Origin: Acidimicrobiales bacterium
GTDB taxonomy: Bacteria; Actinomycetota; Acidimicrobiia; Acidimicrobiales; SZUA-35
Assembly (NCBI GenBank): GCA_020628305.1
Contig: JAHDFH010000002.1
Coordinates: 1 to 36,568 of the forward strand
DNA length: 36,568 nt
Direction: 5' to 3'
Below are positions 1 to 36,568 of the stretch, piece after piece. The notes below the pieces were generated by a model. It saw nothing but the letters and a program-made list of their open reading frames with translations. It had not been told where the DNA came from and did no database searches. Within the stretch, counting starts at the first letter, position 1; each line of letters begins with the position of its first letter. The position numbers and the translations under genes are program-made.

Positions 1-52
1 GAGCATCGGACTCTTAATCCGCAGGTTCTGGGTTCAAGTCCCAGGGGGCGTA
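1..52 (+). tRNA. tRNA-Lys(CTT), 5' part outside window
   Basis: The anticodon loop CTCTTAA gives anticodon CTT, decoding AAG (Lys). The T arm is CTGGG / TTCAAGT / CCCAG at 28-44, followed by seven acceptor bases and discriminator A52. The D arm and 5' acceptor strand lie left of the window. The bases after A52 read CAA, so the CCA tail is not encoded here, unlike the two tRNAs near 6.8-6.96 kb. Confidence 0.88.
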
Positions 53-109
53 CAAAAATGTCAGCGTGTGTGTGGGTGAAGGCGTTTGCCGCTCGGCGTG
101 CTGGGCTTT
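30..109 (+). repeat. Direct repeat, copy 1 (tRNA-Lys 3' end plus flank)
   Basis: This is the first copy of an about 80-bp direct repeat. It starts inside the T arm of tRNA-Lys and runs through the GT-rich downstream flank. The second copy lies 118-119 bp further on, so the pair is a local tandem duplication of the tRNA 3' end and its flank. Confidence 0.85.
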
Positions 110-147
110 TGTGGCAGGTTTGAGTTTTGGTTGTTTTGGTTTGCCGA

Positions 148-228
148 GGGTTCAAGTCCCAGGGGGGCGTACAAAAATGTCGGCGTGTGTGTGGGTGAAA
201 GCGTTTGCCGCTCGGCGTGCTGGGCTTT
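148..228 (+). repeat. Direct repeat, copy 2 (tRNA 3'-end remnant)
   Basis: This second copy matches 30-109 apart from a few substitutions and one extra G in the acceptor-side G run. It carries only the T-arm and acceptor 3' half of a tRNA, without anticodon or D arm, so it is a remnant and not a second tRNA gene. Confidence 0.85.
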
Positions 229-312
229 CTTCCTGGGGCACACTAAATGTCTGAGCCGCAAGCTTGGAGCGTTGCCGCCGGAGGTCGACCCCAAGAGCTA
301 GTCAGGAGCATG

Positions 313-35297: not shown

Positions 35298-35335
35298 GCG
35301 CGGCCGTTTGCCGCGTCCCTAATGCCGCGGCTTGG
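35298..35335. repeat. Dispersed GC-rich repeat A, copy 2
   Basis: It shares the 21-nt core (35309-35329) and flanking GCGCGGC and CTTGG with 24020-24056. The copies are 11 kb apart; here it lies between the divergent aconitase and lipoprotein genes. Confidence 0.75.
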
Positions 35336-35385
35336 GGCCTATTAGGCATGGGCAAATCAGCTATCCGGCTCAAAAAGAGGCAGAA

Positions 35386-35985
35386 ATGGTCGAATCGGTT
35401 CTTGTGAGGATTCTCCAGTCTCTAATTCAATTATCAGTTGCTGCTGTGCTGTTTCTTGGTGCGTGTGCTGCTGAGCCTGTAGCGCTTAGCCAGTTGGAGA
35501 TTTCAAACGCATTAGTCGCTCAAGGTGTTGACATTGAAGTGGCGAGCTGTGCGGCTGGTCTTGAAATCACCGAAGCACCAACACAAGATTTGCTTAATTC
35601 AGAACGTCTTGCGAAACACATTGACGATTGTGTTGAGTCGCAAATTGGTATCGCTCAACTAGAAGCTGAAAGACAAGAGCTAACAGTGCTTGCATTTGCT
35701 GATCCGCAAAACTACGGAGACGATGCTGAGTTAGATCTGTTGTGGGACGATTGCGCTGCCGGTAGTGGCAAAGCCTGTGACAAGTTGTTTGCAGAATCGC
35801 CAATCAGCTCAGAGTATGAGAAGTTTGGGTTAAGCTGCGGCGAACGCCTAGAAGTGCTCGACTGTGAAGAACTAGATGCTGAAGATGAAATTCAGCCGAT
35901 CCCGGAAATCGCGGTTGTTACCACTACAACGACTGTCGTGGCCGAGGATGCTCCAGCACCTCAACAAGCAGCACAGACCAACTAG
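35386..35985 (+). CDS. Lipoprotein of unknown function
   Basis: This 199-residue lipoprotein has a signal peptide with lipobox FLGAC, acylated Cys at residue 27. The mature part holds paired Cys and the motif LWDDCAAGSGKACDKLF...EYEKFGLSCG, which resembles a C-terminal cysteine module shared by several actinobacterial secreted proteins. The tail is Thr-rich and Ala/Pro-rich (VVTTTTTVV, then APAPQQAAQTN). The ATG at 35386 is preferred to the in-frame TTG at 35332 because AGAGG precedes it and the signal peptide then begins close to the start. It shares its CTAG stop with the repeat protein gene on the other strand. Confidence 0.72.
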   Translation: MVESVLVRILQSLIQLSVAAVLFLGACAAEPVALSQLEISNALVAQGVDIEVASCAAGLEITEAPTQDLLNSERLAKHIDDCVESQIGIAQLEAERQELTVLAFADPQNYGDDAELDLLWDDCAAGSGKACDKLFAESPISSEYEKFGLSCGERLEVLDCEELDAEDEIQPIPEIAVVTTTTTVVAEDAPAPQQAAQTN

Positions 35986-36568
35986 CGACGATTCGTTTGG
36001 AGTCGGTCAGCTCGAACTTCAGCTGGTGGCGGGCTGGTTGCTTTGAATGACGTTGTAGTCTCTTCATTCCACCAGTTCCTCAATCCAGCTAGCGGGTCAC
36101 TAATGTTGTTGATGGCGAATCGGAGTTTTATTGCTGGTGTGAAGGTTTCTTGTGCTTGTTGTGGTGTGATGTTGAGGTGGTGGGCGATGTTTTCGTCTGT
36201 GAGTGTTGTGTCGAGGTGGTGTTTGACTCGGGTGATTGCAGCTAGCGGGTCACTAATGTTGTTGATGGCGAAGTGGAGTTTTATTGCTGGTGTGAAGGTT
36301 TCTTGTGCTTGTTGTGGTGTGATGTTGAGGTGGTGGGCGATGTTTTCGTCTGTGAGTGTTGTGTCGAGGTGGTGTTTGACTCGGGTGATTGCAGCTAGCG
36401 GGTCACTAATGTTGTGGATGGCGAAGTGGAGTTTTATTGCTTGTGTGAAGGTTTCTTGTGCTTGTTGTGGTGTGATGTTGAGGTGGTGGGCGATGTTTTC
36501 GTCTGTGAGTGTTGTGTCGAGGTGGTGTTTGACTCGGGTGATTGCAGCTAGCGGGTCACTAATGTTGT
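35982..36568 (-). CDS. 51-residue tandem-repeat protein, C-terminal part (runs off right edge)
   Basis: A minus-strand frame without stops enters from the right edge and ends at TAG (35984-35982). It encodes 194 visible residues: three full 51-residue units plus partial ends. A unit reads ISDPLAAITRVKHHLDTTL, then TDENIAHHLNITPQQAQETF, then TPAIKLRFAINN. Each unit should form three helices; TDENIAHHLNITPQQ resembles a helix-turn-helix. The last unit gives way to a unique tail, LAGLRNWWNEE to the end ADRLQTNRR. The coding strand is strikingly C/A-rich and T-poor, unlike all neighbours. There is no start codon in the window, so the protein is longer than seen. The function is unknown. Confidence 0.75.
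   Translation of the reverse strand, partial: NISDPLAAITRVKHHLDTTLTDENIAHHLNITPQQAQETFTQAIKLHFAIHNISDPLAAITRVKHHLDTTLTDENIAHHLNITPQQAQETFTPAIKLHFAINNISDPLAAITRVKHHLDTTLTDENIAHHLNITPQQAQETFTPAIKLRFAINNISDPLAGLRNWWNEETTTSFKATSPPPAEVRADRLQTNRR
36087..36568 (-). repeat. 153-bp tandem repeat array (3 units plus edge)
   Basis: The units begin at 36087, 36240 and 36393, and a fourth starts at 36546 and is cut by the edge. The period is exactly 153 bp (51 codons). Units differ at only two to four bases: AATCGG against AAGTGG near the left end of each, GTTGTTG against GTTGTGG, and GCTGG against GCTTG. Confidence 0.92.

Follow-up and report, generated by a model that had tools for sequence, protein, structure and literature searches.

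The right end of the window, i.e., the whole stretch of 36,568 nucleotides analysed here, raises the question of whether a run of near-identical 153-bp units represents part of a gene and, if so, which kind of protein it encodes. Contig C85 (113,432 bp), of which the window forms the left part, belongs to a genome of 2.36 Mb in 132 contigs; judging from the encoded proteins, the lineage appears to be actinobacterial, probably Acidimicrobiia. A search with TRF retrieved a single tandem array in the window, at positions 36086-36568, with a period of 153, 3.2 copies, 98% matches and no indels, and on the minus strand a reading frame is open from the window edge to a TAG at 35982, for a total of 194 codons. 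These data confirm an earlier note on this DNA, which had described near-identical units in an open minus-strand frame; its three full units were all recovered, whereas of the fourth, which it placed at the edge, the window contains only two bases. Besides the three full units, the array has a 24-bp remnant on its left and an 82-bp partial copy beyond an assembly gap. The features are the following:

36414..36566, minus strand: repeat unit 1 (NISDP...FAIH, with Q as residue 42), from TRF, the ORF and the unit alignment
36261..36413, minus strand: repeat unit 2, with two base differences from unit 1
36108..36260, minus strand: repeat unit 3 (KLRFAIN variant), with four base differences from unit 1
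about 36084..36107, minus strand: terminal partial unit NISDPLAG, the 24-bp remnant, from the ORF and the unit comparison
35982..36083, minus strand: unique C-terminal tail of 34 residues (pI 10.6, predicted disordered), with the TAG stop
36086..36568, minus strand: the window part of the whole array, which continues past the window edge
35332..35985, plus strand: convergent lipoprotein-like gene, a neighbour outside the system, kept across the family

The three full units (36108-36566) vary at four positions altogether, all located in its final 30 bases: Q or P is encoded at codon 42, H or N at codon 51, and at codon 47 H is changed to R through two bases. The helix-turn-helix-like core does not vary among the three units. 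All the base differences between units change an amino acid and none is synonymous; the comparison of the units therefore gives no sign of purifying selection on the repeat. The recent expansion proposed from the near-identity of the copies is supported.

Beyond the window edge, exactly 100 N (C85:36569-36668) lie inside the array and represent a scaffold-gap placeholder. The 82-bp partial unit is located to the right of this gap and ends at C85:36751; the repeats are preceded by an N-terminal part of 209 residues of unique sequence, and the frame opens at an ATG (C85:37377) about 40 bp downstream of a gene that Pfam identifies as an acyltransferase and that has the same orientation. Extended to the right, as the earlier note had suggested, the frame meets no stop soon after the edge and reaches this ATG 809 bp further on, across the gap. 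According to the unit phase and the frame on both sides, the expected content of the gap is 108+153k bp; this is a multiple of three, so that the frame is consistent across it. The smallest complete protein would be about 467 residues long, comprising the 209 unique residues, a partial repeat, at least four repeat cores (the three seen and one or more in the gap), and the 34-residue basic tail. The number of units is probably under-represented in the assembly, since near-identical units tend to collapse when short reads are assembled.

The coding nature of the array was checked using a codon-usage score trained on ten genes of the window. In the sense frame, the N-terminal part scored +0.24 bits/codon and the array +0.22, known genes ranging from +0.22 to +0.40, and all the other frames of the two regions scored lower. 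Every unit has stops in two of its three frames on either strand; besides the sense frame, one antisense frame is also open through the array, and openness alone is thus weak evidence of coding. It is the open frame together with a codon usage like that of known genes that bears out the coding claim. The codon endings of the N-terminal part are ordinary, leaning towards G/T (0.64). The RNA of the array has no excess structure (z -0.23); hence, the array bears little resemblance to an RNA or hairpin element, and such a role was rejected.

Neither the repeat unit nor the N-terminal part has a relative among the 60 nearest relatives, a 395-genome class sample, a species-level genome collection, viral contigs, phages, and plasmids, to which a 397-genome phylum sample was added for the N-terminal part; moreover, no second copy of the unit was found elsewhere in its own genome. 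The statement that no described family contains this unit stands in the collections searched. The earlier note had counted a lack of homologues with the repeat in frame against its own reading, with satellite DNA as the alternative; no homologue was indeed retrieved, but, as the reading frame holds together and its codon usage agrees with it, an orphan gene is a better reading of this absence than satellite DNA. Weak matches to the N-terminal part were inspected at three loci (L038, L042 and L045; L039, L043, L044 and L046 were left out) and were attributed to chance: L038, from the class sample, overlaps an acyl-CoA dehydrogenase, and at L042 and L045, from the phylum sample, no ORF resembling the query exists at the match.

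The flanking lipoprotein-like and acyltransferase genes are kept in the family and lie near each other in several genomes. The slot between them (C85:35986-37416 in the genome under study, G000) holds the repeat gene here, a TetR-like gene in G003 (L026), and a glycosyltransferase-like gene in G006 (L025); it is short in G004 and G008. The unrelated genes of G003 and G006 imply that the slot is a variable one, in which G000 harbors a species-restricted gene. On the left side, the repeat gene and its convergent lipoprotein-like neighbour have their stop codons in one palindromic CTAG (35982-35985).

The structure of the unit was predicted with AlphaFold from the single sequence. In the best model (pLDDT 80), each unit forms four regular helices; this is the one confident model of the array out of five, the remaining ones having a pLDDT of 43-50. 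The helical nature assigned to the unit by the earlier note is thus in agreement with the prediction, whereas its count of three helices is not, and the helix-turn-helix core that it recognised is weak, also in terms of domain matches. A single unit matches Sigma70_r3 (PF04539) with 16.9 bits and an E value of 0.0072, below the Pfam gathering cut-off of 25.3, and the whole protein exceeds this cut-off (42.3 bits) solely by the sum of three near-copies. The whole-protein Pfam matches (Sigma70_r3 at 8e-11, DUF2316, KELAA, and others) and the whole-protein PHROG matches were discarded as inflated in the same way; with one unit as the query, Pfam leaves only the sub-threshold Sigma70_r3 match. Sigma-70 regions 2 and 4 are absent, with no match to them over the Pfam cut-off in the array plus tail part, and the N-terminal part has no Pfam match; the AlphaFold model of the latter (pLDDT 35) is too poor for use. 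A Foldseek search against PDB and viral models retrieved nothing significant, the best matches being HigA-like proteins with E about 1.

In principle, the array might be a modular one binding nucleic acids, each unit being a helix-turn-helix that contacts DNA or RNA in a TALE-like manner, in accordance with the weak Sigma70_r3 resemblance of each unit and with the basic C-terminal tail. The charge of the unit itself speaks against nucleic-acid binding, being net acidic (pI 6.2, about -5 per three units), and the would-be recognition helix, TPQQAQETF, has no basic residue. Considering also that the single-unit score is under the family cut-off, that the HigA-like fold matches are not significant, and that the cores are identical, which leaves no variable code, we regard this hypothesis as unlikely, and the nucleic-acid scaffold suggested in the earlier note did not hold up. 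The sub-cut-off Sigma70_r3 match, the acidic unit, the lack of a basic recognition helix and the absence of significant Foldseek matches rather favour a spacer or a protein-binding scaffold.

Another possibility, less probable than not, is that of a neutral macrosatellite in a fast-evolving orphan gene, amplified in frame by chance and with no selected function; the T-poor strand rarely makes stops, which would be part of the reason why the frame stays open. The absence of synonymous differences between units, the open frame on the opposite strand, the A+C bias, which lowers the chance of TAA, TAG and TGA, and the confinement of the gene to one genome are all in line with it. On the other hand, the four remaining frames do carry stops in every unit, the frame is continuous with an N-terminal ORF of normal composition and its codon score fits coding, and the best AlphaFold model assigns regular helices to the unit. 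It could also be argued that the scaffold was wrongly joined at the repeat, and that an array from one gene or genome was thereby attached to the N-terminal domain of another, given the 100-N gap inside the array and the fragmentation of the assembly. This appears very improbable: the sequences left and right of the gap carry the same unit on the same strand, their phase differs by 108 bp, which is divisible by 3, the unit has no second copy in the genome, and three units on one side are free of gaps.

The reading that we prefer, and to which we assign about an even chance, is that of a species-restricted gene whose recently amplified helical-repeat product acts as a spacer or a protein-binding scaffold. 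According to this model, a real protein-coding gene limited to one species encodes a 209-residue N-terminal domain, at least four (and probably more) near-identical 51-residue all-helical repeats, and a 34-residue basic tail; the array would have been built by recent in-frame duplication (153 = 3 x 51), through either slippage or unequal crossing-over. The product would most likely be a repetitive helical spacer or a multivalent protein-binding scaffold, with a reach set by the copy number. The anatomy of the gene, its coding frame, the near-identity of the units and the lack of relatives in the collections searched come directly from the data; the stacking of the helices, the binding of a protein rather than a nucleic acid, and the change in copy number are inferred, and any binding target would be purely conjectural. 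The helical repeat is an undescribed one and its array is naturally homogenised; it may represent a test object for the origin of new bacterial repeat proteins.

As for known systems, the kind of gene is already known, since near-identical in-frame tandem units in an open frame, which characterise bacterial intragenic macrosatellite genes, are found here; the sequence family is new. The adhesin gene cmbA of Limosilactobacillus reuteri is described as an intragenic macrosatellite gene (PMC13339910), and it shares with the present gene long near-identical in-frame tandem units, contained in a single bacterial gene, that earlier assemblies resolved poorly; it differs in that its product is a cell-wall-anchored adhesin, whereas, by eye, neither a signal peptide nor a wall anchor is obvious in the repeat protein, whose units are predicted to be helical. 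Compared with Sigma-70 region 3 (PF04539), the unit stretch TRVKHHL..TDENIAHHLNITPQQAQETF resembles the helix-turn-helix part; the differences are the sub-cut-off score of the single unit, the tandem near-identical copies, and the absence of the other sigma domains. TALE units are 33-35 residues long, consist of two helices, carry hypervariable di-residues that specify the base, and have a basic surface. The array resembles TALE and TALE-like proteins in that near-identical DNA encodes tandem helical modules that are likewise near-identical, but its units are acidic, 51 residues long and with four predicted helices, and the core is invariant in three units, which does not fit TALE-like repeats. 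Lastly, the DUF222-HNH (13E12-like) genes of the same lineage have the same extreme signature of A/C-ended codons on the coding strand, but they are dispersed and single, whereas the repeat gene is a tandem array. The repeat protein has no phmmer match to 30 DUF222 proteins and no DUF222 or HNH Pfam match, and a common descent was rejected because of this lack of similarity.

The array nevertheless shares its codon signature with these genes. The coding strand of the array has 77% A+C, the maximum being 71% (on either strand) in any other 150-bp stretch of the window, and about 45 consecutive codons per unit end in A or C. The earlier note had seen this composition nowhere else in the window; it is indeed unmatched there and not unique in the genome, where a survey based on the pattern of 38 consecutive A/C at every third base retrieved the array and a few other places. 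In a DUF222-HNH gene on contig C65 (L108, 6610-7947, minus strand; Pfam), the A/C signature occupies the 3' part, the share of codons ending in G/T dropping from an initial 0.68 to 0.04. In 30 DUF222 genes from 14 genomes of the lineage (L110-L139), this share changes by -0.154 from the first to the last third (p = 5e-6), compared to falls of 0.03 for 26 genes of the window and 0.04 for the relatives' acyltransferase genes. Furthermore, in the single-contig genome G038, the DUF222-HNH genes (L160-L171) show a mean fall of 0.226, downward in 12 out of 12, while 126 other predicted genes have a fall of about 0.01 (p = 2e-7 for the difference). Eleven of these 12 genes are in lagging-strand orientation, assuming a terminus half-way from the dnaA end, an assignment resting on this assumption and on a dnaA-dnaN-recF-gyrB-gyrA cluster at base 1 recognised by eye; the GC skew sampled along G038 did not reveal two clean replication arms.

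In mycobacteria, repeats of this DUF222-HNH/13E12 kind are named REP13E12 and have been reported as a gene-conversion hotspot (PMC13061034); REP13E12 has also been flagged alongside DUF222 as a repetitive element (PMC10589994). In the literature searched, no paper links REP13E12 with the lagging strand, and the 5'-to-3' gradient of the DUF222-HNH genes, together with their apparent replication-orientation bias, is statistically strong and unexplained there. One might speculate, although we consider it rather improbable, that the A/C signature of the array marks a strand-directional process (e.g., gene conversion or mutagenesis by way of single-stranded DNA) whose effects extend to the DUF222-HNH genes of the lineage, the array being its target or by-product and not merely a slipped repeat. 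In any case, the repeat gene directs attention to the codon signature common to the DUF222-HNH genes, and the observation of their codon gradient may outweigh in value the finding of the repeat gene itself.

Two surface-protein-like genes at contig ends (L107, C59, 6051-6500; L109, C82, about 1-300, minus strand) have near-identical starts, corresponding to the signal-peptide region, in which 98% of the codons end in G/T, i.e., the opposite bias, and which was among the other places retrieved by the pattern survey; this bias weakens towards the rest of the gene, and past the start the two sequences diverge, so that the starts look like homogenised 5' cassettes. Inside the window, an ORF rich in Thr and Glu (L013, 8086-8634, minus strand) contains a 21-bp repeat (ETTTTEE) and has the look of a secreted low-complexity protein.
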